Shown: piece after piece, positions 3,470-20,019 of the stretch
Position numbering within the stretch: position 1 is the stretch's first letter
Layout of the letters: each line of letters begins with the position of its first letter
Assembly: GCF_000012985.1 (NCBI RefSeq)
Contig: NC_007645.1
Location: 3,928,581-3,992,580, forward strand
Direction: 5' to 3'
DNA length: 64,000 bases
Source: Hahella chejuensis KCTC 2396
GTDB lineage: Bacteria > Pseudomonadota > Gammaproteobacteria > Pseudomonadales > Oleiphilaceae
Position numbers and translations under genes: made by a program
The notes under the pieces: generated by a model
Seen by the model: only the letters and a program-made list of their open reading frames with translations
Database searches by the model: none
What the model was told of the DNA's origin: nothing

Positions 3470-4117
3470 CTAACTGACTTCAGTTACAACTGGATAATGG
3501 TCTCCGCCTTGCTCATGGTGGCGCTCTGTATTCTTGGTGAAAACACCCTCGCTACGCAGAAAAAAATCAAGTTCTTTGCCAGAGCCAGGGTGCGTAACCT
3601 TACCGCAGTTAGAAGGGTAGACTTTAAAGCCTCTCGACGCTGTTCCTATCTGGACAGTCCTGGTCATGCCACTGGGTAGTTCCGATGGCTGACAGTTGAA
3701 GTCGCCTCCGACAATAAAAGTATTTTCGCCAATACTGTTAATAAGAGACATCGCCGTTGTGGCGTCAAACTGACCACTTCCACCCGCATTAGAATGCAGC
3801 GTTCCAATCACCATGCCATTGTATTGGGTATAGATTACGCTTCGTCCGGTATCGCTTTGCAGGTATTTTGAGTCAAACGACAGACCCACATGACGGGTGA
3901 TGATGCAAGTGGTGCAGCGATTATTCAGCGCACCGGCCTGCCCTACACTGTATAGGATCTTGTGCGCCGAAATGGCGTCTAATTCCGCCTGCGTTAGACC
4001 GCCGCACTCTTGTATTAAAACAAAGTCGCAGTCATTCAGCAGTTGCTTCAGTATCTTTTGTTTAGGGTCCGTAGTGGGCTTTCCCTGAGAGTTCCAAGTC
4101 GCTATTTTCACATTCAC
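3470..4117 (-). CDS. CdtB-like endonuclease/exonuclease/phosphatase family protein
   Basis: 215-aa protein of the DNase I-like fold. Family motifs in order: NVKIATWNSQG at the N-terminus, FVLIQECG (metal-binding Glu), GTLHSNAGG (catalytic His region), FIVGGDFNCQPSEL (Asp/Asn motif), ELDFFLRS, and GGDHYPV near the C-terminus (final Asp-His). The order and spacing match CdtB, the nuclease subunit of cytolethal distending toxin, better than exonuclease III or DNase I. No signal peptide is visible and no cdtA/cdtC or pertussis-like subunit genes are nearby. The start is GTG (4117); a GTG two codons later preceded by GAGG is also possible. Its role could be anti-bacterial, anti-host, or a cytoplasmic nuclease. 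Confidence 0.8.
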   Translation of the reverse strand: MNVKIATWNSQGKPTTDPKQKILKQLLNDCDFVLIQECGGLTQAELDAISAHKILYSVGQAGALNNRCTTCIITRHVGLSFDSKYLQSDTGRSVIYTQYNGMVIGTLHSNAGGSGQFDATTAMSLINSIGENTFIVGGDFNCQPSELPSGMTRTVQIGTASRGFKVYPSNCGKVTHPGSGKELDFFLRSEGVFTKNTERHHEQGGDHYPVVTEVS

Positions 4118-4566
4118 CTCAACTGGATCAGAATCATATAGCCGTTATTCAGTGATAAATATTAGGGAACCTCTGAAGAACGTTGGCGAGGCCGCCAATA
4201 TTTATGTGAACTCAGAGATAAGCGGGGCTATCTCTATCATTCCTTCAGTTGATCTGAAAAATGACCCGATCCAAACAATCCCCAGCGAAATATAGACGAT
4301 GGAAATTCAGTGCTTTTCCACATGGGTGAGCAACAATTCCTCGTTCTTTATTGAGGCGTCGATAGCTGTGCAATTCTTGCCGTCATGACACAAGCCCTAT
4401 CACCTACTGGCGAATCGCCGTCACTTGAAACAACTTGAGCGAACCGATAAGAGAGCCGGGATCAGTTTCTCTCTGGCGCCCTTCAGCACTGGCTGCTCGA
4501 TGTGAATATCGCTCACTTGCAGAGAAGCCGGCATATCGTTCAGGAGGCGGTGTCCATAGTCATAAT
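4118..4566. other. Gap without recognisable gene
   Basis: About 450 bases between the CdtB-like gene and a methyltransferase remnant. I see no convincing reading frame, start site or repeat. Short open frames on the plus strand near 4435-4566 have no family features. Confidence 0.5.
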
Positions 4567-4790
4567 TCACCCTTTCATTTTGCCCAGCTCAAGCGTCAGC
4601 TCACTGGCGTAATAGAACTCAGATAAGCAGGGGTAGCAAAACTGGCTGGATAATTCCGGCTCCTCAAACACAGCCGCTCCGCCAGGATTCAGAAGCCCTG
4701 CGACTCTTTCCAGATACCTCTGTTTATGCGGTTGATGCATTAATACGAATTCCATAACATGGTTCAATACGTTCATGACCAACAGATCCA
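4567..4790 (-). pseudogene. Remnant of a class I SAM-dependent methyltransferase
   Basis: The minus strand reads [15 protein letters not shown] followed by RYLERVAGLLNPGGAAVFEEPE and a short tail to a stop. This looks like the post-motif-II part of a Rossmann-fold methyltransferase (the LLNPGG turn). There is no motif I upstream: the frame runs into the start of a lipoprotein gene on the other strand, so the N-terminal half is missing. It is probably the decayed 3' end of a gene whose front was replaced. Confidence is limited because only about 70 residues can be judged. Confidence 0.4.
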
Positions 4791-5227
4791 TGCGCCACAA
4801 AAACATAATTATCCACCTGATTATCGGCGGCTTCCTGCTTCTCAGCGCCTGCGCCACCTTCACCTCAACTTCCACCAAACAACGCTATCTGGACATGACC
4901 TACCAGGACTTCGGCCCGCCCGCCCTGGCGACGGATTTATTAGGCTCCGAATGGTGGCAATGGAATCCTCACGGCGACCCCAGACCAAGACAGTACGACG
5001 TTCATGTGATCGTCTACCGCGATATAACGGAGAAAGAAATCCGCAAACGCTTCCCTATCGACGAAGCCACCGAAAAAGACTACCGCTACCTCCCCTACTC
5101 AACCGCCATGACTTACCTCAACACCCACATCGCAGAACTCGCCTCAGATGACGAAAACGTAGTGCAGGAGATTAGAGAGCAGTTGATTCAGACAAGGAGA
5201 GAAATTGTTCGAGCGCTGGGGGATTGA
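4775..5227 (+). CDS. Small lipoprotein of unknown function
   Basis: 150 aa with a type II signal peptide: positively charged start, hydrophobic stretch [12 protein letters not shown], and lipobox LSAC, so the mature protein would be membrane-anchored by its cysteine (about residue 27). The mature part is polar, with no domain I recognise; it is rich in charged residues and ends in a helical segment. ATGs at 4775 and 4790 are both possible starts, the second giving a more typical short n-region. The perfect 9-bp minisatellite begins 38 bases after its stop. Confidence 0.7.
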
Positions 5228-5264
5228 GGCGTCTACTCTTTTGTAGCCAATGACGACCTCCCAG

Positions 5265-5438
5265 CCCCGTTCGCCCCGTTCGCCCCGTTCGCCCCGTTCG
5301 CCCCGTTCGCCCCGTTCGCCCCGTTCGCCCCGTTCGCCCCGTTCGCCCCGTTCGCCCCGTTCGCCCCGTTCGCCCCGTTCGCCCCGTTCGCCCCGTTCGC
5401 CCCGTTCGCCCCGTTCGCCCCGTTCGCCCCGTTCGCCC
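5265..5438. repeat. Perfect 9-bp tandem repeat, about 19 copies
   Basis: The unit CCCCGTTCG is repeated without any mismatch for 174 bases. It lies between the lipoprotein gene and the defence operon and runs straight into a dispersed palindromic element whose edge has the same sequence (CCGTTCGCCC). Because 9 is a multiple of 3, all frames stay open, giving false Ser-Pro-Arg, Arg-Thr-Gly and Ala-Asn-Gly proteins. The perfect identity suggests recent expansion and likely length variation. Confidence 0.97.
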
Positions 5439-5464
5439 TGAGCCTGTCGAAGGGCTCTTCAAAA
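5428..5464 (-). repeat. REP-like dispersed palindromic element
   Basis: Contains GTTCGCCCTGAGCCTGTCGA followed by AGGGC, an imperfect inverted repeat (GCCCT...AGGGC). Near-identical copies occur at about 19301, 23828, 38813 and 39034 (inverted). It is the same class of small dispersed repeat seen in many proteobacterial genomes; no transposase is linked in this window. Confidence 0.85.
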
Positions 5465-5658
5465 CGCAAGCAATACATCAACAATTTCCCCTGCATTTTC
5501 GACGTCCTTGTCTATACTTCTTTTCACCTGATCAAAAATCAACCACAACCAGGGACGACTCAGGCATCTCCATATGACATGGAGAATTAGGATTCGATTT
5601 GTTTACTGCTTGATTTCACAGAAATTACTGCACAAACAGTCTTCAGGAAGCCTGAACG

Positions 5659-8600
5659 ATGGACGTATTCGAATATCGCGATGCCGTAATCGCCGACTAC
5701 GAAAGCTTCAGCCGAAGCTTCGCCAAAATCAGCGCCGCTGATATCCAAAGTTTTATCTCTGAACGATACGAAAAAGGTCACTATTGGCCTGCGCCGTTGA
5801 TTCAAATTAACCCTTCATTCGTGCCTGGCGACAATGTTGAAGCGTTAGTAGCAAAAGGGACTTTGCATAAAGAGTGCGCGAATATTTTCCGTTTTAACCG
5901 CAGTACTGCAGATCCCCAAGGCATTCCGGCGGGCCTGCATACGCATCAGCAGGCCGCCATCGGCTTGGCGCAAAGTAGAGAAAGTTATGTATTAACCACA
6001 GGAACCGGTTCCGGGAAGTCGCTGAGCTATATCCTGCCGATTGTCGACGCGATACTGAAAGAAAAAGAACATAACTCCCGCCCCTCCATCAAAGCGATCA
6101 TCATTTATCCCATGAACGCCTTGGTGAACTCACAGCTTGAAGAGTTGGAAAAGTTTCTTGGCCACTATGGCGACAACAAGCCTGTGACCTACGGAAGATA
6201 TACCGGTCAGGAGTCCCAAGAAGCCCGCCACGCCATGTCGGCCAATCCACCGGATATTATCCTGACCAACTTCATGATGCTTGAGCTGCTTATGACGCGG
6301 CAGGACGAGATTGATCGCCTCGTAATCCAGTCTGCGAAAGGTTTACGCTTCCTCGTACTGGATGAACTCCATACCTATCGGGGGCGGCAAGGAGCGGACG
6401 TAGCAATGTTGGTGCGTCGCGTTCGTGAGGCGCTAAACCCGGAAGTGTTATGTATAGGCACCTCAGCCACTATGGCCAGTGAGGGGTCGCTGGCGGCGAA
6501 GAATGCAGCCGTGGCGACCGTGGCCAGCAAGTTGTTCGGCGCGCAAGTTAAGTCAGAAAATATTGTGACTGAAACGCTGCAGCGTATAACTACTCAAGAC
6601 ATTAAACCAACGCCCGAAACACTGTCTCGCGCCCTGCAACAGCCCATTCCTTCAGCTTTTGATTTCCGGGCATTCTGCGCACACCCCATCGCTGTCTGGG
6701 TCGAGCTGACTCTGGGATTGGTATGGGAGGAAGAGCGTTGGGTTCGCGCCAAGCCCCAGAACCTCGCATGGGCGGCGGAGAAACTATCCGCCGACTCGGG
6801 TTTAGACCAGCAATCATGTCAGGATTATCTCCGTCAGTTCTTGCTGGCGGCGTATCGCTGCAAGAGTCCGACAGGTAAGCCGGTTTTTGCATTTAGACTG
6901 CATCAGTTTATTTCTGGCCCCAGCCATGCTTACTCCACCTTAGAGCCGGAAGGAAAAAGAGTGGTGGACCTCAGCGGCCAGCAGTTTCTGCCTGGCAGCA
7001 ATCGGGAAAAATTGTTCTACACCCTCTATTTCTGCCGCCAATGTGGGCAGGATTACCATCCGGTTTGTTATGAGAATGAAAGCGGCGAAGGCGCGTTAAA
7101 GCCCCGGGGCATTGATGACAAGAATAACGATGAGGAATCCAGTGATTGGGGCTATTTCATGCTCGATCCACAGCGTAGATGGGACGATGGCAATTACGAA
7201 AGCAGTTATCCGGAACACTGGTTAGAGGAAAAAAACGGCGATTACCGTCTTCGCAGCAGCTATAAGAAATTCAAACCGACCGAAACCTTTGTAAAGCCAG
7301 ACGGAACAATCGATATTCAGGGCGAAAGAGGATGGTTCATCCCGGGTAGTTTCAGATTCTGTCTTAACTGCGGCTTTGTACATCGCGGGAAGAGTCGAGA
7401 AGCGAGCCGGCTCACGTCTCTCAGTGGCGAGGGCCGCTCCTCCGCAACAACGGTGCTAACTATCTCTGCATTACGCTACTTGCTTGAGCGCGATACAGAA
7501 TTAAAGGACGACGCCAAAAAGCTGCTGGGTTTTACCGATAACCGACAGGATGCTTCACTGCAGGCAGGCCATTACAACGACTTTATTCAGATACTGCTAC
7601 TCCGCTCCAGTCTGCTGGCGGCAGTTAAAAGCGCTCCAAACGGCTACCTCACGGATAGCCTTTTATCGCAAGCGGTTTTTCAAAGCCTGGGATTCGACAG
7701 AGTTGAGGAAAGGCCCCAATACCTCGCCAATCCATCCGTCGATGGGCCAGGCTTGAGAAAAGCGGAGGAAGCGTTACGGAATGTGCTTTCCTATCGGCTC
7801 TATTTTGATTTAAGAAGAGGTTGGCGATTCAACAATCCTAACCTGGAGCAACTGGGATTATTAAAGATCGAATACGAAGGGCTCGCTGATCTCAGTCAGG
7901 ACCAACGCAAGTGGGAAAATTTAAAATTTCCTGAGCTGCAGAATGTTTCGGTAGAATTCAGATTTAAAGCCCTCAAAGCCGTTCTAGATACAATGCGCCG
8001 AGGTCTGTGTATCAAAAGCAGGTTCCTGGATGCTTATCAGCAAGAGCAGTTCAAGTCTCAAAGCTACGCACACCTTATAGAGCCCTGGGCTTTCACGGAA
8101 GAGGAGCAACTTCAACCAAGTTGCACTATGATTCTGACAAGCAAACCCAAAGGCAGGAACAGCTACAATCTTGTCACTGCCTCAAGCCGATCCTCATTGG
8201 GCCAAACCTTAAAAAGGTCCAATGTATGGGGTGATGACCTCTCACTGCTTCCTAGAATAAACGACGCCAATTACCCTGATCTCATCTTAAGTTTAATCGG
8301 AGTGCTTCAGAGTTATGGTCTGGTCGAGGAAGTCAATGAAGAGAGAGGAATACAAGGCTATCAACTTGTTGGGGAGTTTATACAATGGATGCCCAGCACA
8401 GGCGTATCCTCAACTGATCCGACGACCCCTTACAGCTCAGAAAACGAGTACTTCAAAAACCTATATCAAAACATCGCTGAATTTTTAGTTGCTGGAAATA
8501 GGACATTCTTCGAGCTTGAAGCTCGTGAACATACCGCCCAGGTCAGCATTGATAAACGGGAGGAGCGGGAAAAACAATTCCGCGAAGCCACTTTAAAAAC

Positions 8601-10896
8601 ACTATTCTGCTCCCCCACCATGGAGCTTGGCGTGGATATCGCGTCCCTGAATTCTGTTTACTTACGCAATGTCCCTCCTACGCCAGCCAACTACGCACAG
8701 CGCTCCGGCAGGGCGGGCCGTTCCGGGCAACCCGCCTTGGTCATCACCTACTGCGCCGCATTAAGTCCTCATGATCAGTACTTCTTTTCCGATCCCGCCC
8801 GCATGGTGCACGGTCATGTCAGCCCGCCCACTCTGGACCTGGCGAACGAGGACCTTATCGCCAGCCACTTACATGCCATCTGGCTGAGTGAAACCAAGCA
8901 AGCGTTACCTAAGACCGTCAATCTGATGCTGGACATGAACCAACCCTCGAACATGCCGGTTTTGGATGAGTTCGACATGCAGATGAACAGCGATAAAGTT
9001 CGCAGCCGAACCATAGAACGGGGTTTGGATATTATGAGAATGCTGGTTGGCGATATAGCAGTCGCACAAGGCGCCTGGCTTAGTGACGAGCATTCTTTAG
9101 AGGAAGCCATCAGCCAGTGGATGAAGCGCAAGGTGAATGCCGCTTACATAGAGTTTTGCGATTCGTTGAAGCGTTGGAGAGAGCTCTATGCCTCAACTCA
9201 GGATCAAATGCAGAAAGCTCACCTGATCAATACCAATCCAGCGGCCAGTGAGACAGAGCGGAAAGCCGCTGGCCAACGTTACGGCGAAGCGCGAACGCAA
9301 ATGGATTTATTGCTTGATGCGCACAGCGACACCAGCTCGGACTTCTCTACTTATCGCTATCTCGCCAGTCAGGGTTTCCTGCCTGGTTATAACTTCCCTC
9401 GCCTGCCTTTGCTGGCCTACATCCAAGGCCGACGCGGCAACATCGGTCGCGATAGTTTTCTCGCCAGACCGCGCTTTCTGGCCATTTCCGAATTCGGACC
9501 TTTAAGTCTTATTTATCATGAAGGCAGTCAGTATCGGGTCAAAAAAGTCATCTTGGGCGTGCGTCCAGAGCAATCACTGGATCAGCCCGGTTTAGTCAAA
9601 GAAGAAGCCAGACTCTGTCCAGCTTGCGGATATGGGCATTTTCATACCCAACTGGAGGATGAACTTTGTAACGCCTGCGGTTCTCCCATTGAGGGAGGAA
9701 AGCGTGTGTCCAATCTTTATCGCATCGACAATGTCAGCACCAAGAGAGCTTACCGCATCACCTGCGATGAAGAAGAGCGGCAAAGGCAAGGTTACGAAAT
9801 GCAGACCACTGTTCAGTTCCACCAGACTGACGGTTGCCTGCGCGTCACCCAAGGCGAACTACTCAGCCAAGGGAGCCGTCTGTTTACGGTCCAGTATGCG
9901 CCCACCGCCACAGTTTGGCGGCTGAACCTGGGATGGCGGCGTAGAAAAAATCCTTCCATCTATGGCTTCAACATCGACGCCGTTTCCGGCCAATGGAGCG
10001 CCGACGAACAAGCCGCCCAGGAAAACAGCGATGATCTGGCGCAAGGAGAAAACCATGTAGAGCGTATCACGCCCTATGTGGAAGACCGACGCAACATTCT
10101 GATACTGAGGCCGGAGGCGGAGCTTAAACTTGATGAACATGCCCTGGCCACGCTGCAATACGCCTTGAAACGAGGCATTGAAGAAGAGTTCCAGATTGAA
10201 GAAGCGGAGCTGGTGGTTGAACCGCTGCCCAGTCGGGATGACCGGAATACCATTCTATTTTATGAAGCCTCAGAAGGCGGCGCAGGCGTCTTAACCCGGC
10301 TGACCAGCAGCAAATACGCCTTTGCGAGCATTGCAGAGCGCGCACTGAGAATCTGTCATTACTCGACAAACGATGACTGGGCCAGCGTGCCTGAAGATAT
10401 GAATACTGACTGCGATGCCGGTTGCTATCGCTGCCTGCTCAGTTACTACAACCAGATTGATCACAAGCTGATTGACCGCAAGAACAGTGAAGCGGTCAAC
10501 GCGCTTCTCAAGCTGATTCACTCTGAACTAAAAGTTGGTGCAGGTTCAAAACCTTACACAGAGCAGGAAGACTATTTAAAACAGCTTTCCGGCAGCTCGC
10601 TGGAAAGCGCCTTTCTTAATCACCTTAAGACAAACGGTCACCGGTTGCCGGATAAAGCGCAGGTCGTCATAGAAAAGTTCAGAACCCGGCCGGACTTTAT
10701 ATACAGCGATCATAACGCCGCCATATACATAGACGGTCCTCACCATGAAATGCCCCAGCGGCAAAAGCTGGACGAAGAGCTTTCGAGGCGACTTCGCGCG
10801 CATGGATTAACCGTGATCCGCTTCCCCAAAGAACGTGAGCGCTGGCCATCTATCCTCGCTGAGTATCCAGATATTTTCGGAGCGGCGACGAAATGA
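5659..10896 (+). CDS. YprA/DruE-like defence helicase with DUF1998-type zinc region and C-terminal nuclease-like domain
   Basis: 1745-aa superfamily 2 helicase. The first RecA domain has Walker A TGTGSGKS (about 114-121), motif II DELH (about 235) and GTSAT (about 267). The second has SPTMELGVDIASLN and YAQRSGRAGRSGQ (about 985-1025). Cysteine pairs occur at CRQCG (about 457), CLNCG (about 570), CPACG...CNACG (about 1320-1340) and CDAGCYRC (about 1583), the last typical of DUF1998 ends in YprA/MrfA, DrmB and DruE proteins. The last 80 residues read RPDFIYSDH then AIYIDGPHHE and TVIRFPKE, like Vsr/DUF559-type nucleases. The length and one-chain layout fit DruE better than the split DrmA+DrmB. 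Its stop overlaps the next gene (ATGA). Antiphage function is inferred from family and context. Confidence 0.85.
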   Translation: MDVFEYRDAVIADYESFSRSFAKISAADIQSFISERYEKGHYWPAPLIQINPSFVPGDNVEALVAKGTLHKECANIFRFNRSTADPQGIPAGLHTHQQAAIGLAQSRESYVLTTGTGSGKSLSYILPIVDAILKEKEHNSRPSIKAIIIYPMNALVNSQLEELEKFLGHYGDNKPVTYGRYTGQESQEARHAMSANPPDIILTNFMMLELLMTRQDEIDRLVIQSAKGLRFLVLDELHTYRGRQGADVAMLVRRVREALNPEVLCIGTSATMASEGSLAAKNAAVATVASKLFGAQVKSENIVTETLQRITTQDIKPTPETLSRALQQPIPSAFDFRAFCAHPIAVWVELTLGLVWEEERWVRAKPQNLAWAAEKLSADSGLDQQSCQDYLRQFLLAAYRCKSPTGKPVFAFRLHQFISGPSHAYSTLEPEGKRVVDLSGQQFLPGSNREKLFYTLYFCRQCGQDYHPVCYENESGEGALKPRGIDDKNNDEESSDWGYFMLDPQRRWDDGNYESSYPEHWLEEKNGDYRLRSSYKKFKPTETFVKPDGTIDIQGERGWFIPGSFRFCLNCGFVHRGKSREASRLTSLSGEGRSSATTVLTISALRYLLERDTELKDDAKKLLGFTDNRQDASLQAGHYNDFIQILLLRSSLLAAVKSAPNGYLTDSLLSQAVFQSLGFDRVEERPQYLANPSVDGPGLRKAEEALRNVLSYRLYFDLRRGWRFNNPNLEQLGLLKIEYEGLADLSQDQRKWENLKFPELQNVSVEFRFKALKAVLDTMRRGLCIKSRFLDAYQQEQFKSQSYAHLIEPWAFTEEEQLQPSCTMILTSKPKGRNSYNLVTASSRSSLGQTLKRSNVWGDDLSLLPRINDANYPDLILSLIGVLQSYGLVEEVNEERGIQGYQLVGEFIQWMPSTGVSSTDPTTPYSSENEYFKNLYQNIAEFLVAGNRTFFELEAREHTAQVSIDKREEREKQFREATLKTLFCSPTMELGVDIASLNSVYLRNVPPTPANYAQRSGRAGRSGQPALVITYCAALSPHDQYFFSDPARMVHGHVSPPTLDLANEDLIASHLHAIWLSETKQALPKTVNLMLDMNQPSNMPVLDEFDMQMNSDKVRSRTIERGLDIMRMLVGDIAVAQGAWLSDEHSLEEAISQWMKRKVNAAYIEFCDSLKRWRELYASTQDQMQKAHLINTNPAASETERKAAGQRYGEARTQMDLLLDAHSDTSSDFSTYRYLASQGFLPGYNFPRLPLLAYIQGRRGNIGRDSFLARPRFLAISEFGPLSLIYHEGSQYRVKKVILGVRPEQSLDQPGLVKEEARLCPACGYGHFHTQLEDELCNACGSPIEGGKRVSNLYRIDNVSTKRAYRITCDEEERQRQGYEMQTTVQFHQTDGCLRVTQGELLSQGSRLFTVQYAPTATVWRLNLGWRRRKNPSIYGFNIDAVSGQWSADEQAAQENSDDLAQGENHVERITPYVEDRRNILILRPEAELKLDEHALATLQYALKRGIEEEFQIEEAELVVEPLPSRDDRNTILFYEASEGGAGVLTRLTSSKYAFASIAERALRICHYSTNDDWASVPEDMNTDCDAGCYRCLLSYYNQIDHKLIDRKNSEAVNALLKLIHSELKVGAGSKPYTEQEDYLKQLSGSSLESAFLNHLKTNGHRLPDKAQVVIEKFRTRPDFIYSDHNAAIYIDGPHHEMPQRQKLDEELSRRLRAHGLTVIRFPKERERWPSILAEYPDIFGAATK

Positions 10897-13736
10897 GCGA
10901 GCACACTTTCAGCCCGGGATCAGTCGTCACGGCCAGAGGCAGAGAGTGGATAGTGCTGCCGCAGAGCGACGCCAGGTTACTCCATTTACGCCCTCTTGGT
11001 GGAGGTGATGACGCCATCACGGCGCTGCTTCCCGAGTTAGAACCCATTCACTCCGCCAGCTTTCCGCCTCCACAGGTGATGCACTCCGGCACACAAGCCG
11101 CCGGCCTGCTCTTGCGTGACGCATTGATGCTGAAGTTGCGGGCCGGCGCAGGCCCATTCCGCAGCTTTGGCAATATCGCAATAGAGCCCCGCGCCTATCA
11201 GCTGGTCCCCCTCATGATGGCGCTAAAACTGGAAACCATTCGCCTGTTAATCGCGGATGATGTAGGCGTTGGCAAAACCATCGAGGCGAGCCTGATAGTC
11301 CGTGAAATGCTGGATCGGGCGGAAATCAACCGATTTACCGTGCTGTGTCCGCCCCACTTATGCGAGCAATGGCATGAAGAACTGAAAGAGCGTTTCCATC
11401 TGGACGCCACTATCGTGCGCTCCACCACAGCGGCGCGCCTGGAGAGAGGTCTACTGCAGGACCGTTCGATATTTACAGAGCACCCTTTTACGATTGTGTC
11501 TCTGGATTACATCAAGAATAAAACCCGCCGCGACGCCTTCCTGCTTCATTGCCCCGAGTTCGTCATTGTGGATGAAGCCCACACCTGCGCCAGAAGCGGC
11601 ATGGGGCCTCATTTGCGTTATGGACTATTAAAAGACCTTGCAGCGAACGAAGCCAGACACATGGTGTTGCTGACAGCGACGCCGCACAGTGGTGACGAAG
11701 AGGCTTTCTATAACCTGCTCTCGTTATTGAAGCCTGAGTTCGTCGACCTGAGAACCATCGATAATGCGGCGCATCCTCTTCGCCAGGCGCTGGCCAACCA
11801 TTTTGTGCAGCGACGCCGGCAGGATATCGGTGAGTGGAAAGAAGGCAACCTGTTCCCCGACAGGCTGACCAGCGAAGCGACTTACAAACTGACGGGAGAA
11901 TGGAACGCCATTTTTCATGATGTGCTTGAATACGCGCGCGAGCTGGTCAGTAGAGAGTCGGAAGGTACGTTCAAGGCTCGAATGAACTGGTGGGCGGCGC
12001 TGGCGCTCCTCCGCTGTATCTCTTCATCGCCTCAGGCGGCGATACGTGCGCTCAATACACGCCTCGACAACACCCTCTCCCCCGATGGCAAATCGCCTGA
12101 CGAGGAAGACCAACGATGCCATATTGAAGCTTTGAACGAAAAAGGAGCCCTAAGCGTACTGGATGGAACGGATGACAACCTGACGTTGGACGATGTCGAG
12201 CCCGGTGCAGCCCAGGAGGAAGATGTTGCAATACTGAAGCGCTTGATTGAACGCGCCAAACATCTGAAAAGCGGCAACGACCCCAAACTGCAAACCTTAA
12301 AACAGATTATCAAGCCCGTGTTGGACGAGGGCTATAACCCTGTCATCTTCTGCCGCTATATCGCCACAGCGGAATATCTGGCGGACGAACTGAACTCCGC
12401 TTTTCCTCAACGAGAGGTCATTCATGTCACCGGCGATTTAACGCCGACGGAACGGCTTGAACGCATTGAACAGCTCAAGGAAAGCGACAAAGCCCCATTA
12501 CTGGTCGCCACAGACTGCTTATCAGAGGGCGTGAACCTGCAAGAGCAGTTCAATGCCGTTATCCATTATGACTTGAGCTGGAACCCGACCCGTCATGAAC
12601 AGCGTGAAGGCCGGGTTGATCGCTTCGGGCAAAAGGCTAAAAACGTTAAGGCGCTCATGTACTACGGCGAGGAAAATCCTGTGGACGGGGCCGTCCTGCA
12701 GGTCATTCTCAGAAAAGCGGAAAGTATTCGCAAAGCCCTTGGCGTTACCGTTCCCATGCCCGAAGAAGGAGACCGCGCAGAACAAGCCCTGATGAAAGCC
12801 GTACTCCTGCGCAGCGGCAACTATATCGGCAGTAAAGGCATGGACGACCTGTTCGCCCAGGACGCAGACCTCCAAGCGTTAGACGCCAAATGGGAATCGG
12901 CTCGCGAAAAAGCCAGACGACACCGCACCTTGTTTGCGCAAAACCGGTTAAAACCGGAAGACGTCCTGCCGGAATGGGAAAAAGCTTTTGCCGTGCTGGG
13001 AACAGAGGAAGACGTAAAGCGCTTTGTTTTAAACGCCTGCGAGCGCCTGGGCGCACCCTTGAAAAGTCTGAAGCAAGGCGGCTATCAAGCCCCATTACCC
13101 CATTTCGGCGAAAAGCACCCCGGCCTTCGTGATCGACTGGACGCAGCCGGCTTACTCGCCTTAAAGCACATTGATTTCTACTATCCAAGCGCTCTCAAAG
13201 CGGAGTTTATCCATCGCACCCACCCACTGGTCTCACACTTGGCGGACTATCTTGCGGAACTGGCGATGAGCGGCGAAGACACAAAACTGATCGCAAGAGC
13301 CGGCGCTCTGTACACGAAGGAAGTAGAAACGCGCACAGTCATCTATTTGCTGCGCATCCGATCACGATTGATTCTCAAAAGAACCTTGCATGAGTGCGAC
13401 CTGCTGGCGGAAGAGGCGCTGGCCATCGCCATCAATGCCGATAACCAAGCCTCGGTCATACCGAAAGATCAGGCCTTAAAACTGATGCAGGCGTCCGTGA
13501 GTAAGGATATGTGTAAAGAGGCTAAAGAGCGCGAATTGGCTGAGGAACTCAACCAACTGGAAGAAAAGCAGCCAATGTTTAGAAGCCTGGCGGAAGCGCG
13601 AGCCAAGCAATTATTAGCGGATCATCGCCGCACCCGCGAGGCGGCGCAAGCCAAAGGCAGCTATGAAGTAAAACCACAATTTCCTGTGGATGTGCTGGGC
13701 GTGTACGTGCTGATTCCGGACCTAAAACTTTTCTAA
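10893..13736 (+). CDS. DrmD-like SNF2-family helicase
   Basis: 947-aa Swi2/Snf2-type ATPase. Features: DDVGVGKTIEA (Walker A, about 124-132), VDEAH (about 225), LLTATPHSGDEEAF (motif III), VIFCRYIATAEYLADEL in the C-terminal helicase lobe, ATDCLSEGVNLQ, and HEQREGRVDRFGQ (motif VI, about 570). The long helical C-terminus, rich in Glu, Lys and Arg, resembles DrmD of class 1 DISARM and RapA-like translocases. It starts within the stop of the helicase-nuclease gene and ends 71 bases before the methyltransferase gene. It most likely tracks along duplex DNA as the motor of the same defence complex; that role is inferred. Confidence 0.87.
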   Translation: MSEHTFSPGSVVTARGREWIVLPQSDARLLHLRPLGGGDDAITALLPELEPIHSASFPPPQVMHSGTQAAGLLLRDALMLKLRAGAGPFRSFGNIAIEPRAYQLVPLMMALKLETIRLLIADDVGVGKTIEASLIVREMLDRAEINRFTVLCPPHLCEQWHEELKERFHLDATIVRSTTAARLERGLLQDRSIFTEHPFTIVSLDYIKNKTRRDAFLLHCPEFVIVDEAHTCARSGMGPHLRYGLLKDLAANEARHMVLLTATPHSGDEEAFYNLLSLLKPEFVDLRTIDNAAHPLRQALANHFVQRRRQDIGEWKEGNLFPDRLTSEATYKLTGEWNAIFHDVLEYARELVSRESEGTFKARMNWWAALALLRCISSSPQAAIRALNTRLDNTLSPDGKSPDEEDQRCHIEALNEKGALSVLDGTDDNLTLDDVEPGAAQEEDVAILKRLIERAKHLKSGNDPKLQTLKQIIKPVLDEGYNPVIFCRYIATAEYLADELNSAFPQREVIHVTGDLTPTERLERIEQLKESDKAPLLVATDCLSEGVNLQEQFNAVIHYDLSWNPTRHEQREGRVDRFGQKAKNVKALMYYGEENPVDGAVLQVILRKAESIRKALGVTVPMPEEGDRAEQALMKAVLLRSGNYIGSKGMDDLFAQDADLQALDAKWESAREKARRHRTLFAQNRLKPEDVLPEWEKAFAVLGTEEDVKRFVLNACERLGAPLKSLKQGGYQAPLPHFGEKHPGLRDRLDAAGLLALKHIDFYYPSALKAEFIHRTHPLVSHLADYLAELAMSGEDTKLIARAGALYTKEVETRTVIYLLRIRSRLILKRTLHECDLLAEEALAIAINADNQASVIPKDQALKLMQASVSKDMCKEAKERELAEELNQLEEKQPMFRSLAEARAKQLLADHRRTREAAQAKGSYEVKPQFPVDVLGVYVLIPDLKLF

Positions 13737-13807
13737 GCCCCGGATACAGGCCCTCACCTCAAGTTATCTGAAGTCGACTTCGGTCAATCGCAGTAGGAGG
13801 GATGAAC

Positions 13808-16800
13808 ATGGCGTTAAAAAGGCAGATCGAGCAGCCCTTTGAATCAACACATGTCATAGGCGGGTTATTGAGTACGGAGCTTTTAACCCGCTTGCGAGAG
13901 ACCGGACGCAACGCCCTGCCAGGGCGCTCCGAGGCGGAATACGGCATCCCCAAGGGCCTGAAGTTCAATGAAGAACTGGGGCGTTATTGGCGTATTGCAC
14001 AGTCGTTATGGCAAAACTATCGGGAACTGGCCCAGCGCCAGGATTACGCTGATCATGAAAGCCAGAAAAGGTTAGCCCTTGAGGAATGGCTGATTCCCCT
14101 GCTGCAGGACGTCTTCTGTTATCGCCCTGAGCCAACCGACCCGATAACCATTGGAGAACGTTATTTCCCCATCACTCATTTTGCTAACAAGCACACCCTT
14201 CCCTTTGTGTTATGCGGTGCAGACCAGGATCTGGATAAATCTGATGCGGAGTTTGGCCAAAAAGATAAAAAAGGCGATAAAAAGCGTTCTCCGACCGCCT
14301 TGGCGCAGGAGTACCTGAATGCAGAAGAGCAATGCCTGTGGGCGATCGTGGCCAATGGGCTCTATCTTCGCCTGCTGCGCGATAATCCAGCGATCACCCG
14401 TCCCGCATACATTGAAGTCGACTTTGCCCGCATATTCGACGAGGAAGACTATGCGGAGTTCACCATCGTCTGGCTATTGCTGCACCAGTCTCGCACCCGA
14501 CCACTGACATCAAAAAATGTTTCCGTTCTTTCCGTGGAGCGTTGCTGGTTGGAGAAGTGGCGCGAGAAAGGCAAAGAAGAAGGAGAAAGGGCCAAAGAGT
14601 CTCTTCGCTATGGCGTTGAACATGCCATGGAGTCCCTGGGGACGGGCTTTCTGTCACACTCCAAAAATCAACGTTTACGTGATTTATTCACCAACGGGCA
14701 ACTGGACGAAAAAGGCTTCCATAATCAGATTCAACGCCTGGCGTATCGGTTTCTGTTTCTGCTGGTTGCGGAAGACAGAGACATCGCCCTGTTGCCGCAG
14801 TTTTATCAACAACAGGACTACCGAGGCGCCCGGGAGCTGTATCAAAAATGGTACAGCGTGAGCCACTTCAGGAAACAAGCGCGCCTGCGCTCATGCCGGG
14901 ACTCATACGGCGATGCATGGCGGCAACTGCTGGTCACTTTTAAAGGCTTTGCCGTGGGGCAACCTCTGCTGGCGCAGCCTGCGCTGGGCGGTATTTTCGC
15001 GCTCGATCAGTGTCCTGACTTGGACCAGTGCGAGCTTGAAAACAAATACCTGTATGAAGCGTTATTCAATCTCTGCTTTTTTGTACAACACGACGTGTTA
15101 CGGCCGGTTAATTACCGAGATATGGACACCACTGAGTTTGGTTCAGTCTATGAGTCTCTGCTTGAATTGATGCCGCAGATTAACGTGAATGGTGTCTGGC
15201 GGTTTTGTTTAATCAAAAGCAAAGGAGATAAAAAGGAACTAGGAACCTATTACACTCCCGAGAATCTGGTCCAAGAGCTTATCAAATCTGCCCTTAAGCC
15301 CGTCATTGAGAATCGACTAAAAAATATAGGGGGTAACCCCAGTGATAAAATTCTATCTATCACTATTTGCGACCCCGCTTGCGGTTCTGGTCACTGCCTG
15401 ATTGCGGCTGCTAAATGTCTCGCTGCGGAGCTGGTGCGTTATGACACCCAATCAAGGAACTCGGAACTGCAACATCGTATTGCCATGCGAAAAGTAATAC
15501 AAAAGTGTATCTACGGTGTAGATATTAATAACATGGCGATTGAGCTTTGTAAGATTGCACTATGGTTAGAGTCAGTAGAACCGGGTAAGCCACTAAGTTT
15601 TCTAGACTCTCACATTAAACACGGTAATTCTTTAGTAGGAATCCTGACCTCCTCTCAAATAGAAAAAGGAATACCTGACGAAGCTTTCCAACCGCTAACC
15701 AGAGATGACAAAAGTATATGCCCAGACTTAAAAAATAAAAACAAAAAAACTGGAAAAAATATTGCAATCTCTCTAAGGACAATTGGCCTCCTACACCATG
15801 ATCTGGAAGAATTATGTGAGGATACTCTTGAAGAGGTATCTTCTAAAGAGAGCAGGTATAAGAAATTTGAAAATAGTGAAAGTTACCTTCAGGAGAAATT
15901 AAAAGAAGACTTATTCACTGCATCCTTCTTTATTCCGAAGACCTTTGAAACCAAAGCATCGGTCCCGACTAACGAAATGCTACATTTATTCTCGCATGGT
16001 GAAAATTTACCTCCAGAGACTTTGCAGCTAGTGCAAAAAACTGCAAAGTCCTACCACTTTTTTCACTGGCCATTGGCCTTTCCGAATATTTTTGGAGATA
16101 AAGGACGAGGAGGCTTCGATGTAGTCATTGGAAATGCACCATGGAACGTTTCCCAATTAAGTGAAGACGAGTACTTCGCCGTAGACGCCCCAAGTATTAC
16201 TAATTTATCTGGTGCAAAACGCAAAAAAGCCATACAAGATCTAGAAGTAAGCAATCCTGATTTATGGAATAGATTTCAAATAGATAAACATAAAATTGAA
16301 AGCCACAATCAATTCTATCGTTTTGGCGGCCGCAACAAGCTTACCGCGAAGGGAAAAATAAATCTTTATGCCCTCTTCGCAGAACTTTTCGCCACTATGA
16401 TAAATAGTACTGGTCGGGCAGCTATGATATCCCCAACAGGAATCGTTACAGATGACTCTACAAAGTTATTTTTCTCTTGGTTAACTAGCCAAAAAATTCT
16501 CGCAGGTATTTACGACTTTGAGAATAGGAAAAAGTTATTCCCTGCCGTTGATTCTCGGATTAAGTTCTGCGTGCTGTCTATAGGGCATGATATTGAATTA
16601 GCGAAGTTAGCATTTTTTCTTGAGAAAACAGAACAAACTACGGACACAAACCGAGTTTTCACCCTGAGCAGCCAAGACTTTAACTTGATTAACCCAAATA
16701 CAAAAACATGCCCTGTGTTTCGCTCTCAAATGGACTGTGAGCTGACTAAAAAAATTTACAAAAGTGCTCCAGTCCTTATCAAGGAAGAGACTGCCAATGA

Positions 16801-18052
16801 GCCTGAAGTAAATCACTGGGGAGTCCGCTTTTCCCAGGGTCTGTTTAACATGACATCTAAAAGCGATCTATTTAAAGAATATAGCGAGATTATTGATGAG
16901 GGAGGAGCTGTAACCAGGAATATTGCACATATTAACGACCACAAATATCTCCCCCTCTACGAAGCCAAAATGGTCCACCACTACGACCACCGCTGGGCTA
17001 CCTACGAAATAGACGGCAAGACAAGTCGCGACTGCACCCTCGCGGAAAAACAAAATCCCAACTACCACAGCCTGCCTCGCTATTGGGTAGCGGAAAATGA
17101 AGTCACACTCCGCACAACCCGAGCGCCAAAAGCCGTCCTGGATGCGATTAAAAAGCAAGACGCTGAAAAGCTGGATCACACTCTCAGACTATGGGCTGCG
17201 GGCTCATACATCGAAACCCATCCTGACGGACTAGACAGCGCGATTGTTAGAGGTCTTCTGCAAGACGCCCGATCCAGTGATGACAATGACTTGTATGACG
17301 ACACTTATGATCACCGCGCTATAAACACTGCCTGCTTGTTAGCGAAAGAGTCCATGTTGAGCAATGAAGAAGTTGAACAGCTCGTCGCCAATCTAAACCG
17401 CTCACAAGATCCGTTTTCATTCATCTGGCCGCTGCTGGAAGCACGCCGGCCAAAATACCTGCTGGGCTGGCGGGATATTACAAATGCTACTAATGAGCGC
17501 ACTGTGATTGCCGGAGTGATTCCGTTGAGTGCTGTGGGAAATAACATGCCTCTTGCTTTCGTTTCAGAGACTTATAGTGCGAAGCATATAGCGGCACTAA
17601 CAAGTAACTTATCATCATTACCTCTTGATTTCGTCGCTCGTCACAAAGTGGGCGGTACTCATTTAAATTTTTTCATATTTAAACAGCTTCCAGTTTTGTC
17701 CCCTGAACAATATGAAACCTCTGACCTGGAATATATTGTTCCCCGCGTATTGGAGCTCACGTATTCATCATACAACTTAAAGCCATTCGCTGAAGACATG
17801 GGCTACAACGGCCCTCCCTTCAAATTCGACCCAGAACGTCGCCACCTCCTCAAAAGCGAACTAGACGCCTACTACGCCAAACTCTACGGCCTCACCCGCG
17901 ATGAACTACGCTACATCCTCGACCCGGCAGACGTCATGGGCGAAGACTACCCCTCCGAAACATTCCGGGTACTGAAAAAGAATGAGATGAAAGCGTTTGG
18001 CGAATACCGCACTCGGCGGTTGGTGTTGGAGGCTTGGGATCGGTTGGGATAG
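13808..18052 (+). CDS. DrmMI-like N6-adenine DNA methyltransferase
   Basis: About 1414 aa. The start at ATG 13808 is favoured over ATG 13802 because AGGAGG ends at 13800. A helical N-terminal third precedes the catalytic domain: GTYYTPENLVQELI, SAM-binding motif I CDPACGSGHCLIAA (about 522), then motif IV as NAPW (about 777) where NPPW/Y is usual. The later part holds a target-recognition-like region and FIFKQLP, and it ends in the YGLTRDEL...ILDP...TFRVLKKNE tail shared by PglX, DrmMI and type IIG enzymes. No PD-(D/E)xK nuclease motif was seen. It would mark self DNA for the helicase-nuclease upstream. The middle (about 15.2-16.95 kb) is clearly AT-richer than both ends, suggesting exchange of the catalytic/recognition region. 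Confidence 0.88.
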   Translation: MALKRQIEQPFESTHVIGGLLSTELLTRLRETGRNALPGRSEAEYGIPKGLKFNEELGRYWRIAQSLWQNYRELAQRQDYADHESQKRLALEEWLIPLLQDVFCYRPEPTDPITIGERYFPITHFANKHTLPFVLCGADQDLDKSDAEFGQKDKKGDKKRSPTALAQEYLNAEEQCLWAIVANGLYLRLLRDNPAITRPAYIEVDFARIFDEEDYAEFTIVWLLLHQSRTRPLTSKNVSVLSVERCWLEKWREKGKEEGERAKESLRYGVEHAMESLGTGFLSHSKNQRLRDLFTNGQLDEKGFHNQIQRLAYRFLFLLVAEDRDIALLPQFYQQQDYRGARELYQKWYSVSHFRKQARLRSCRDSYGDAWRQLLVTFKGFAVGQPLLAQPALGGIFALDQCPDLDQCELENKYLYEALFNLCFFVQHDVLRPVNYRDMDTTEFGSVYESLLELMPQINVNGVWRFCLIKSKGDKKELGTYYTPENLVQELIKSALKPVIENRLKNIGGNPSDKILSITICDPACGSGHCLIAAAKCLAAELVRYDTQSRNSELQHRIAMRKVIQKCIYGVDINNMAIELCKIALWLESVEPGKPLSFLDSHIKHGNSLVGILTSSQIEKGIPDEAFQPLTRDDKSICPDLKNKNKKTGKNIAISLRTIGLLHHDLEELCEDTLEEVSSKESRYKKFENSESYLQEKLKEDLFTASFFIPKTFETKASVPTNEMLHLFSHGENLPPETLQLVQKTAKSYHFFHWPLAFPNIFGDKGRGGFDVVIGNAPWNVSQLSEDEYFAVDAPSITNLSGAKRKKAIQDLEVSNPDLWNRFQIDKHKIESHNQFYRFGGRNKLTAKGKINLYALFAELFATMINSTGRAAMISPTGIVTDDSTKLFFSWLTSQKILAGIYDFENRKKLFPAVDSRIKFCVLSIGHDIELAKLAFFLEKTEQTTDTNRVFTLSSQDFNLINPNTKTCPVFRSQMDCELTKKIYKSAPVLIKEETANEPEVNHWGVRFSQGLFNMTSKSDLFKEYSEIIDEGGAVTRNIAHINDHKYLPLYEAKMVHHYDHRWATYEIDGKTSRDCTLAEKQNPNYHSLPRYWVAENEVTLRTTRAPKAVLDAIKKQDAEKLDHTLRLWAAGSYIETHPDGLDSAIVRGLLQDARSSDDNDLYDDTYDHRAINTACLLAKESMLSNEEVEQLVANLNRSQDPFSFIWPLLEARRPKYLLGWRDITNATNERTVIAGVIPLSAVGNNMPLAFVSETYSAKHIAALTSNLSSLPLDFVARHKVGGTHLNFFIFKQLPVLSPEQYETSDLEYIVPRVLELTYSSYNLKPFAEDMGYNGPPFKFDPERRHLLKSELDAYYAKLYGLTRDELRYILDPADVMGEDYPSETFRVLKKNEMKAFGEYRTRRLVLEAWDRLG

Positions 18053-18103
18053 ACGCAGACCAAGAAAGCTGAATCGCTCGCATATTTTATAGGAGGAAAA
18101 GCA

Positions 18104-18320
18104 ATGTCCAGGGTTCCTACATACAAAACGCTCTTATGGATTTACAACAATAGCCCCGAAGAAGTCAGATCCCATTTCGACCACATACGACGAAGTGTAT
18201 AACGTGGCGAAATTCAGACCCTTTGGCGATATGCTCGGGTTCAGAGGCAGAGCCGATTCATTAGATATTAATACGACAAAATGGCTTATGCGCGGCCTGG
18301 GGTTTGGCGTCAGGGCCTAG
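18104..18320 (+). pseudogene. Small frameshifted gene (or 32-aa peptide gene) after the defence operon
   Basis: A strong ribosome site (AGGAGG, 18091) precedes ATG 18104. The frame encodes a 32-residue peptide ending in a stop at 18202. From about 18170 the next frame stays open to a stop at 18320 and reads DEVYNVAKFRPFGDMLGF then RGRADSLDINTTKWLM, which looks like protein. The simplest reading is one gene of about 70 codons with a frameshift near 18170-18190. It could also be a real short peptide. I recognise no family. Confidence 0.4.
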
Positions 18321-18396
18321 CTGAAAATACCTTCATAATAATAAACACTTGGGCGGCTACTCATAAGAAATCATCACTATTGAGAGGAGCCAGGCT

Positions 18397-18798
18397 ATGC
18401 CGATGCATAAGAAACATTGGTTAAAGTGCAGCCATTGTGGAGAAAATGTCACCAGGGACTCTTTCGCCATCGCACGTCATTTCAAAATGAGACATAACAT
18501 TAACCTGTCGGAAGGTGAAGCCTATCGGTTAGGCTCTTCTAAACCCGTTATCCTGATGGATCAAAATATAAAGCTTCGACCTGCGGAAAATGTTAGCCAT
18601 CATGATAAGCCGCGTAAAAAACGTCGTTCCCGAGGCCGTAGCATGGCGTCAAAGAAGCCAAAGCTCTCTAATCCCCCGAAAAACTATATCCAGAAAAGAA
18701 AACAGAAAATAGAAGCCACTCATAAGATATCTGGATATAACCGTAAGAAGGTTAAGTTGGTGCAAGGTGGCTCACCGGGCCTTGGTAAAAATGCTTAA
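18397..18798 (+). CDS. Basic C2H2 zinc-finger protein
   Basis: 133 aa. Near the N-terminus it has Cys-x2-Cys (CSHCG) followed after about 17 residues by His-x4-His (HFKMRH), a C2H2-like zinc finger. The remaining 90 residues are very rich in Lys and Arg (PRKKRRSRGRS and similar), so it is probably a nucleic-acid-binding protein. GAGAGGAG lies about 8 bases upstream of the ATG. It sits 345 bases after the methyltransferase gene, so whether it belongs to the defence system is open. No named family recognised. Confidence 0.65.
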   Translation: MPMHKKHWLKCSHCGENVTRDSFAIARHFKMRHNINLSEGEAYRLGSSKPVILMDQNIKLRPAENVSHHDKPRKKRRSRGRSMASKKPKLSNPPKNYIQKRKQKIEATHKISGYNRKKVKLVQGGSPGLGKNA

Positions 18799-19018
18799 TA
18801 TCAATATTAATGATTAGGCATATAAATCACAAAAACCTGTTGATTTAACCAGCATTCCAGTTAATGATAGAAGGGTATTTCCCATGTTAGAAACCGACCG
18901 TTTCCAAAGGAAAATATAACTAAATATCTTGATTTAAATATATGAATTGAAGCGCTACCCCTGAGTGCTCGCAACACCCAGAGGCAGCTAACCACAAAAG
19001 ACTTACCAGGAGTCAATC

Positions 19019-19279
19019 ATGGCTAAGCCGCATGATAAGCCAGAGCGTCGCTCGGCTAAAGTAAAATCTGCCCTTCCCCATCAGCGCCGTCTCAAGGTCC
19101 GCAAGGGTTATTACGATTATCACCTCTCCTCCAGCCGTTATGATTATGGCGGTTTCAAACCCGTTCCCTGGATGTTGATTAAGGGTTATTGGCTGGAGCA
19201 AGCCGGGTTTGGGGTGGACACGGAGGTTGAAGTCAGCGTCAGTGAGGGCAGGATTGTATTCACCGCAGGGGCGGGTTAG
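19019..19279 (+). CDS. SymE-like protein (type I toxin family)
   Basis: 86 aa. The C-terminal half reads VPWMLIKGYWLEQAGF then DTEVEVSVSEGRIVFT, the pattern of the SymE swapped-hairpin fold (I-G-WLE-AGF...V-V..G.IVLT). E. coli SymE is an SOS-induced toxin that affects nucleoid and RNA and is controlled by the antisense RNA SymR. Here the N-terminus is basic and lacks similarity. CAGGAG stands nine bases before the ATG. I see no obvious LexA site or antisense promoter by eye. SymE-like genes are frequent next to restriction/defence loci, as here. Confidence 0.72.
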   Translation: MAKPHDKPERRSAKVKSALPHQRRLKVRKGYYDYHLSSSRYDYGGFKPVPWMLIKGYWLEQAGFGVDTEVEVSVSEGRIVFTAGAG

Positions 19280-19385
19280 TGGTTTTGGATTAGCGCTCTG
19301 GGAAGCCCTTCGACAGGCTCAGGGCGAACGGTGGATGGAGTGGCGCGTTTGAGTCTTGGCTCGCGCGCCTTTTGCTTTTCAGGCT
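19272..19385 (+). repeat. Dispersed repeat, long form, copy 1
   Basis: About 110 bases shared with 23805-23920: TTAGCGCTCTGGGAAGCCC, the palindromic core CTTCGACAGGCTCAGGGC, GAACGG, then GAGTGGCGCG and CGCGCC followed by a T-rich end. It begins inside the last codons of the SymE-like gene. Short versions with only the core occur at 5428, 38813 and 39034. Confidence 0.75.
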
Positions 19386-19501
19386 CCAAGCTTGCTGCAG
19401 GTGTGTTAGCGATTTATTCGTGCTGAGGCTCAATTACTGTGACGTTTAAGCCCCAATCAGGAGAAGGTTCGACAAAGTATTTTGTTATTTGCACAAACAA
19501 C

Positions 19502-19535
19502 AACCTATAAGGCTATAAATATAACCTTATAGGTT
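19502..19535. repeat. AT-rich inverted repeat between convergent genes
   Basis: AACCTATAAGG (19502-19512) and CCTTATAGGTT (19525-19535) are perfect 11-bp arms around a 12-base spacer, with a few more pairs possible inside it. It lies between the SymE-like gene and a minus-strand small gene that converge here. It may act as a factor-independent transcription stop without a GC stem, a protein-binding site, or the footprint of a lost element. Confidence 0.7.
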
Positions 19536-19563
19536 ATTAATTTGTCGCATAGTGTGAGGGTAA

Positions 19564-19818
19564 CTAAGTTTTCTTCCTGCTCTTATCACTATTGTGAACC
19601 AAGGGAGGCTTCCTCTCCTCGGGACGATACTCTTCGATTTCGTCAGGAAACGCTTCAGCATCACTGGAATTTAAAGACTTTTCTCCGCCGAATATAACAC
19701 CGCTTTCATCGAAATCAGCAGGACCGTGCTTGAACATATCATCAACAACGGATTGAGTCTCTTGGCGCACCCATTCCTCGAATTCTTTCGTTCCAGGTTT
19801 CGGACGTTCATTACTCAT
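19564..19818 (-). CDS. Small acidic protein of the EYRPEE family, copy A
   Basis: 84 aa, acidic N-terminus and basic end. The segment DAEAFPDEIEEYRPEERKPPLV matches a segment of the product at 20650-20919 (DAELFP...EYRPEEKK..LV), so the two are paralogs although the rest of each sequence differs. AGGA lies about 8 bases before the ATG. The two genes flank a 286-base region with a palindrome. I do not recognise the family; size, charge and pairing in copy B suggest an antitoxin or adaptor, which is a guess. Confidence 0.6.
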   Translation of the reverse strand: MSNERPKPGTKEFEEWVRQETQSVVDDMFKHGPADFDESGVIFGGEKSLNSSDAEAFPDEIEEYRPEERKPPLVHNSDKSRKKT

Positions 19819-20019
19819 GACAATTTCCTATAGCAATAGTCTCCTCTCTCATTGTAAGAGAACCCAAACAGGCAATTAAGGTAATAGTTTCAGACGACTT
19901 CATTGATAGGTTTCATCCAAAAAGTCGAGCCAGAGCTTATCACCGGTCCACGTTAGTCTGCCTAATGATAGCCCTCGCGCCACCTCTAAACAGGCTCTTT
20001 GGATTAGATAAAACTCACG

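Follow-up and report, generated by a model that had tools for sequence, protein, structure and literature searches.

An operon of Hahella chejuensis assigned to ARMADA Type I, with an ArmB core exchanged among strains and HNH genes beside relatives whose Vsr-type domain is degenerate

We analyzed a stretch of 64,000 nucleotides from Hahella chejuensis KCTC 2396 (NC_007645.1, positions 3,928,581 to 3,992,580; hereafter the window), a genome consisting of a single 7,215,267-base contig. The window contains an operon of three genes, armC, armA and armB, that almost certainly belongs to the ARMADA Type I family. Overall, the operon is best explained as an ARMADA Type I anti-phage system that probably works as proposed below. 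ARMADA was defined in a preprint whose accessible text calls it the "missing link" between DISARM and Druantia (PMC12458937, Bell et al. 2025 preprint). A preliminary description of this DNA had presented the operon as a bridge between these two systems, which matches that wording, and had put forward the name ARMADA without deciding between membership and a new branch. The name proved apt and the operon is now placed as a Type I member; a new branch between DISARM and Druantia was rejected, because the operon fits ARMADA Type I. The system itself is already known, and two exchange patterns, that of the ArmB core and that between Vsr-type domains and HNH genes, are unreported in the literature searched.

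According to the accessible text of the preprint, Type I generally has a YprA helicase (ArmC) first, then a BrxHII-like and then a PglX-like protein, with a C-terminal Vsr-type nuclease, and the criteria for its ArmC include BrxA-like, MarR-like, beta-barrel zinc and single OB insertion domains (PMC12458937). The window operon has this gene order, a one-chain YprA helicase, zinc clusters and a C-terminal Vsr-type nuclease predicted to be active from its motifs, with a weak profile match, and it lacks a RelE-GajB gene. Conserved CxxC pairs in ArmC may bear on the insertion domains. In a comparison made with the description of Type I and not with a reference protein, the sole difference found is the NAPW motif IV of ArmB. 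Open reading frames (ORFs) and their translations agree with the earlier account of a co-directional operon: all three ORFs are intact, armC and armA overlap by 4 bases, and 65 bases separate armA from armB. The same order and strand recur in other phyla, such as Deinococcota and Actinomycetota, so the three-gene set is not a chance arrangement. Plasmids of Roseomonas, Acidithiobacillus, Deinococcus, Nocardioides, Paracoccus, Mesorhizobium, Sphingomonas, Croceicoccus, Agrobacterium and Rhodococcus carry loci in this order, some with one gene split or another inserted. A cyanobacterial locus and a Thermus locus have another order, with ArmC last, which the accessible preprint text describes for cyanobacteria (PMC12458937).

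Phylogeny points the same way. In a quick tree of 26 YprA chains, whose type labels came from gene order and similarity and did not draw on the Type I reference of the preprint, the 13 Type I rows lie on one side of a branch marked 100*, and the window ArmC is inside this group. It lies outside the DruE rows, the DrmA rows and the single MrfA-like row. The preliminary description had named a position among DrmA or MrfA chains as contrary to its proposal, and the window ArmC does not take that position, given that the DISARM and MrfA rows have long branches and an unsure place. The tree also put DISARM inside ARMADA, a placement that we distrust owing to its very long branch.

Type II, as the accessible preprint text describes it, is ordered A-B-C-D and includes a RelE-GajB fusion (PMC12458937). 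ArmA, ArmB and ArmC are homologous between the two types. However, Type II has an extra GajB-like helicase gene with RelE, ArmD, whereas the window has the order C-A-B without it; Type II ArmA and ArmB are 22% and 20% identical to those of the window, and Type II ArmC is longer (2113 aa). One Type II copy is locus L036. A DNA search that started from a plasmid copy found the Type II locus in E. coli KCTC 2571, a strain that we take to be ATCC 8739. Separately, an Allomeiothermus plasmid (L026:3437-19264) carries BrxL, ArmA, ArmB, ArmC and an annotated 3'-5' exonuclease in Type II order; its YprA chain, labeled Type II by gene order, branches beside Type I.

The earlier account of a 1745-aa YprA-family helicase with zinc clusters is borne out by Pfam matches to DEAD (3.8e-25), Helicase_C (6.1e-12) and MrfA Zn-binding (8.7e-11) and by five CxxC pairs at residues 459, 568, 1320, 1337 and 1589. 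The top PADLOC matches of ArmC are DruE models (6.3e-97), and the best DrmA model reaches only 2e-14. Its Walker A motif (GTGSGKS, residue 115), DELH motif (235) and zinc cysteines are invariant across 12 Type I rows. The nuclease-like end also held up, through retained Vsr-type residues and weak profile matches. Residues E1649, D1679, D1692 and H1696 are kept in the window, and together with G1693 they are invariant in 13 aligned domains among 21 judged intact. Matches of this end to Protein Data Bank profiles were weak: 3hrl (endonuclease-like) at E 0.024, 3r3p (mobile-intron protein) at 0.098, PvuRts1I 4oq2 at 0.77 and Vsr 1cw0 at 1.7, with one unrelated short chain (5k5g, E 1.8) among the eight.

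ArmA is an SNF2 protein whose Walker A (DVGVGKT, residue 123) and DEAH (227) motifs are conserved among relatives. Its designation as DrmD-like was only partly sustained: the SNF2 assignment stands and the NCBIfam DrmD model matches at 1.9e-99, but the score of 334 bits falls below the cut-off of 610, and the top PADLOC match, nearly full length, is a DpdE model (5.9e-205). The label therefore holds only broadly. ArmB matches Eco57I/N6_Mtase in Pfam, and its top PADLOC match, DrmMI at 2.3e-63, agrees with the DrmMI-like methyltransferase expected from the first inspection. Given these matches to DruE, DpdE, DrmD and DrmMI, an automatic scan could label the operon Druantia, Dpd or DISARM. The S-adenosylmethionine (SAM) motif DPACGSG of ArmB is intact. 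Motif IV reads NAPW in the window and NVPW in two other Hahella strains, HN01 and G292, but NPPW or NPPY in all 30 non-Hahella loci that gave a match to the pattern (Rhodococcus and G338 gave none, and G476b shows no ArmB); three Type II ArmB proteins read NPPW. Likewise, motif I ends in GSGHCL in all three Hahella strains, with F at the C position in 32 of 32 non-Hahella loci. Every aligned ArmB retains the N and the second P of this motif IV.

Comparison of the Hahella strains revealed that armB has a history of its own. ArmC and ArmA differ by 2–3% in protein between the window, HN01 and G292 (97–98% identical; HN01 ArmC is 97% identical to that of the window). In 50-residue blocks, ArmB of the window and HN01 is 92–100% identical over residues 1–450, 34–87% over 451–1050, 86–94% over 1051–1150, 53% over 1151–1200, 43% and 74% over 1251–1350, and 100% at the end. 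Identity at four-fold sites drops from 0.67–1.00 before residue 450 to 0.11–0.60 in the core, or from about 0.85 to about 0.25 overall, with some blocks resting on few sites. Because four-fold-site identity falls as well, the core has been replaced by a divergent allele and not shaped by protein-level selection alone. HN01 and G292 share their ArmB core, yet they differ from each other at 1251–1350 (four-fold identity 0.29 and 0.56). Judging from motif spacing, we infer that the exchanged core would span the methyltransferase together with a portion of the target-recognition region. In its accessible text, one study describes PglX as a methyltransferase domain followed by a target-recognition domain and as the specificity factor of BREX, and calls phase variation of pglX common (PMC11341690). 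Since PglX sets specificity and pglX often varies in phase, exchange in a PglX-like protein is unsurprising in kind. The pattern marks ArmB as the putative exchangeable specificity part of the system. No report of ArmB exchange in ARMADA occurs among the literature matches listed or in the accessible text of the preprint (PMC12458937).

The second pattern emerged from 36 assembled loci, comprising 16 plasmid records and 20 genomes with the window's own included. A scan of genome contigs gave one relative, and the others came from plasmids and further genomes. By visual inspection of the alignment, 15 of the 36 have a degenerate nuclease end: all 15 lack the DGxxH motif, including D1692, and 14 lack D1679, which Hydrogenimonas perhaps retains; the Acinetobacter end was read from pieces. 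A co-directional HNH endonuclease gene lies downstream of ArmB in 15/15 of these loci and in 0/20 scorable intact loci (20 of 21, as G476b, with an intact nuclease, shows no ArmB and was left out). The two HNH genes tested against Pfam are HNH_2. With tblastn at E 1e-8, HNH genes were detected in 12 loci at the first scan and in G816 and G1049 after locus extension; the Hydrogenimonas gene spans the record start, so that its call relies on annotation and a circular map. Because four of the 15 loci supplied queries, the independent count is 11/11.

Several features of the sample define how these counts are to be read. The degenerate loci of Mesorhizobium, Sphingomonas, Croceicoccus and Agrobacterium were selected for a match that ended near residue 1620; those of Rhodococcus and D. 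radiodurans were selected for one that did not end there. Nine genomes in which ArmC was partial or the contig short (G254, G242, G208, G268, G480, G476 contig 152, G411, G631 and G763) and the plasmid records beyond the 16 used, of 73, were left unscored. After removal of overlaps, the stretch covered downstream of ArmB is 7.7 kb or more in 12 of the 20 intact loci and 2.0–7.1 kb in the other 8; the longest ArmB–HNH distance in degenerate loci is about 8 kb (G816). No downstream HNH gene was found at E 1e-8 in seven extended intact loci and the G292 stretch, or any match in five control stretches of 14–49 kb. Two intact loci gave weaker matches: that of G292 lies on the opposite strand (E 0.006), and that of Roseomonas some 10 kb upstream of armC (E 4e-4).

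In the ArmA tree, the group with degenerate Vsr-type domains needs 3 changes, of which starred branches force 2. The ArmC tree built without the nuclease end (14 degenerate rows, Acinetobacter left out) needs 2 changes, and starred branches force 1. A single degenerate clade is not rejected (p-AU 0.229, or 0.362 without Hydrogenimonas). The genes between ArmB and HNH vary and are LmuB-like, UvrD-like, PDC-M65A/B-like or absent. The main text of the preprint contains "HNH" once, in its reference list (PMC12458937), and no HNH partner of ARMADA appears among the literature matches listed. The pattern suggests that a nuclease output is both required and replaceable. Individual loci show further arrangements: L106:864-7013 has LmuB-like and PDC-M65A/B-like genes between ArmB and HNH in a locus with a degenerate Vsr-type domain, another such locus (L107, reverse complement 5561-14619) has further genes there, and on an Acinetobacter soli plasmid (L023:12001-24123) armC is frameshifted and the ArmB region is annotated as separate genes.

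We propose a mechanism to which we give slightly better than even credence: ArmB would read and mark DNA, ArmA and ArmC would move on unmarked DNA, and the Vsr-type domain would cut it. ArmB would recognize a short DNA site and methylate the host copy, thereby marking it as self. When incoming DNA lacks the mark, ArmB and the SNF2 motor ArmA would together recruit or license ArmC, which may load on exposed single-stranded 3' DNA and then unwind it. Cutting by the Vsr-type domain would stop phage replication while the cell survives. The nuclease step would be the output, and relatives without the fused nuclease would supply it through their separate downstream HNH gene. In the accessible parts of the literature, ARMADA Type II requires all four of its genes and protects directly, without abortive infection (PMC12458937), Druantia III DruE loads onto DNA with a 3' tail (PMC13192584), and a review counts ARMADA among systems that treat unmodified DNA as foreign (PMC12904381). 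Four points weigh against this account. Phage tests were found in the accessible literature only for ARMADA Type II, which was tested in E. coli, and none for the Hahella operon. The Vsr assignment is a putative one, drawn from motifs and weak profile matches in which Vsr itself ranks well below the best hit, 3hrl. As all three Hahella strains depart from NPPW, methylation by ArmB may be weak or lost. Finally, as few as one or two events may underlie the HNH link, since a single clade is not rejected.

The departures in motifs I and IV lend some plausibility to a different role for Hahella ArmB, which might be a DNA-reading subunit only, without a working methyltransferase, self being told by DNA state such as 3' ends or forks. 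Druantia III DruE is said, in the accessible text, to recognize DNA architecture over sequence (PMC13192584). Nevertheless, the conserved N and second P of motif IV and the intact SAM motif speak for a retained methyltransferase, and the swapped core is consistent with a subunit for which sequence specificity is important; we regard a reader-only ArmB as rather unlikely. A machine devoted mainly to DNA repair or plasmid exclusion, with phage defense secondary, appears quite improbable. YprA relatives such as MrfA do act in repair, according to the accessible preprint text (PMC12458937), and relatives of the operon reside on plasmids in many genera. However, a MrfA/YprA repair helicase is short and single, alone or beside an MrfB exonuclease, whereas ArmC has 1745 residues in a three-gene operon; patchy presence (3 of 7 Hahella genomes and 14 of the 398 genomes sampled in the phylum), a remnant at this site in genome G304 and allele exchange would be more typical of defense than of core repair.

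It is very improbable that the operon is class 1 DISARM or Druantia instead of ARMADA. DruE profiles match the first chain and DrmD and DrmMI profiles the second and third; the SNF2 helicase and the PglX-like methyltransferase are related to DrmD and DrmMI, and the one-chain YprA helicase is of the DruE type. Gene content, however, contradicts both assignments. In DISARM the YprA part is divided between DrmA and DrmB and the nuclease is DrmC, and Druantia type III DruE has PLD domains where ArmC has its Vsr-type domain, as described in the accessible preprint text (PMC12458937). Profile searches and neighboring ORFs confirmed the early view that a DruE-like chain occurs here without DrmA, DrmB or DrmC in the operon; a DrmC-type gene, whose presence would have told against that view, was not found beside the operon, nor was a recognized Druantia partner beside armC. 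The DrmD score below its curated cut-off and the position of ArmC outside the DruE and DrmA rows also argue for ARMADA Type I.

Table 1. Features of the operon and its surroundings, in window coordinates
Feature	Position	Strand	Basis
armC: YprA/DruE-like superfamily 2 (SF2) helicase, zinc clusters, C-terminal Vsr-type nuclease, 1745 aa	5659..10896	+	ORF, PADLOC and Pfam matches
Putative Vsr-type PD-(D/E)xK nuclease domain, ArmC C-terminus, residues ~1628-1745	10540..10893	+	Motifs, weak PDB profile match
armA: SNF2/RapA-like (BrxHII/DrmD/DpdE-like) helicase, 947 aa	10893..13736	+	ORF, profile matches
armB: PglX/DrmMI-like adenine DNA methyltransferase, probable specificity subunit, 1416 aa	13802..18052	+	ORF, profile matches
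armB exchanged core, residues 451-1050	15152..16951	+	Diverges from HN01/G292 allele
armB second divergent patch, residues 1151-1200	17252..17401	+	Strain comparison
armB third divergent patch, residues 1251-1350	17552..17851	+	Unlike among all three Hahella strains
ArmB motif IV, NAPW	16133..16144	+	Motif alignment
9-bp tandem repeat GCCCCGTTC, 19.4 copies, perfect, ~220 bp upstream of armC	5264..5438	+	
Upstream region kept in HN01, G292 and operon-less G304	5411..5658	+	Flank comparison
Right edge of variable cassette: homology restarts at 18822 (G292), 18831 (G304)	18822..18831	+	

The operon occupies a variable site (Table 1). G+C content is 45–54% in the 2-kb bins from 4001 to 18000 and 63–64% in bins of the neighboring nonribosomal peptide synthetase gene. 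The Hahella genomes carrying the operon are the window genome, G292 and HN01 (G298), and the relatives in the phylum were counted at E 1e-120, the own genome being included in both counts. G304 keeps both flanks, the upstream region and the first 13 armC codons before homology restarts at 18831, and nothing else of the operon was found between its two flanks. Because the flanks and the armC start remain without the rest, G304 has probably lost the cassette or had it replaced. The 9-bp repeat array is also present in G304, and the sequence after the array recurs elsewhere in the region. In G292, three extra genes follow armB (L060 reverse complement, 14353-19900); judged by eye, one product is DUF262/HNH-like and the other two are helicase-like, and the three are perhaps another defense module. 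In the window, six ORFs scanned between 18397 and 23633 (Pfam, and PADLOC for three) gave no defense family that might form a fourth gene, G292 has different genes in that place, and no ORF exceeds 355 aa between 18052 and 25400. An Rfam search of 4000–26000 gave no match at the gathering score, and no tRNA that could serve as an integration site occurs anywhere in the window. Promoter-like sites numbered 5 against 11.2 expected by chance, and terminator-like sites 18 against 16.8.

Other defense loci were observed in the same genome. A DruE-like 1966-aa helicase (P0004; G000:C1:5167630-5176905, L028:7630-16905) lies 1.2 Mb from the operon, directly after a 1124-aa protein (P0005) without PADLOC or NCBIfam matches, in an arrangement like that of Druantia III. 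A DrmA-like gene just under the NCBIfam cut-off and a DrmB gene (G000:C1:5828258-5833245, L048:11258-16245) lie 1.9 Mb away; no DrmC match was found in the six ORFs scanned at this locus, whose neighbors are UvrD-like. Together with ARMADA, these loci place three YprA-type defense classes in one genome. On a Nocardioides plasmid (L020:1685-27982), DrmA/DrmB, ARMADA I and an AAA ATPase/McrC pair form one co-directional run.

The two exchange patterns raise the prospect, which we hold at even odds, that Type I is a modular restriction machine, combining a swappable specificity cassette in the ArmB core with a nuclease acting in cis (Vsr) or in trans (HNH). The Hahella strains, with near-identical motors and a swapped ArmB core, constitute a natural experiment on what ArmB reads. 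Relatives that combine a degenerate Vsr-type domain with an HNH gene constitute another, on cutting as the output of the system and on the interchangeability of its nucleases.

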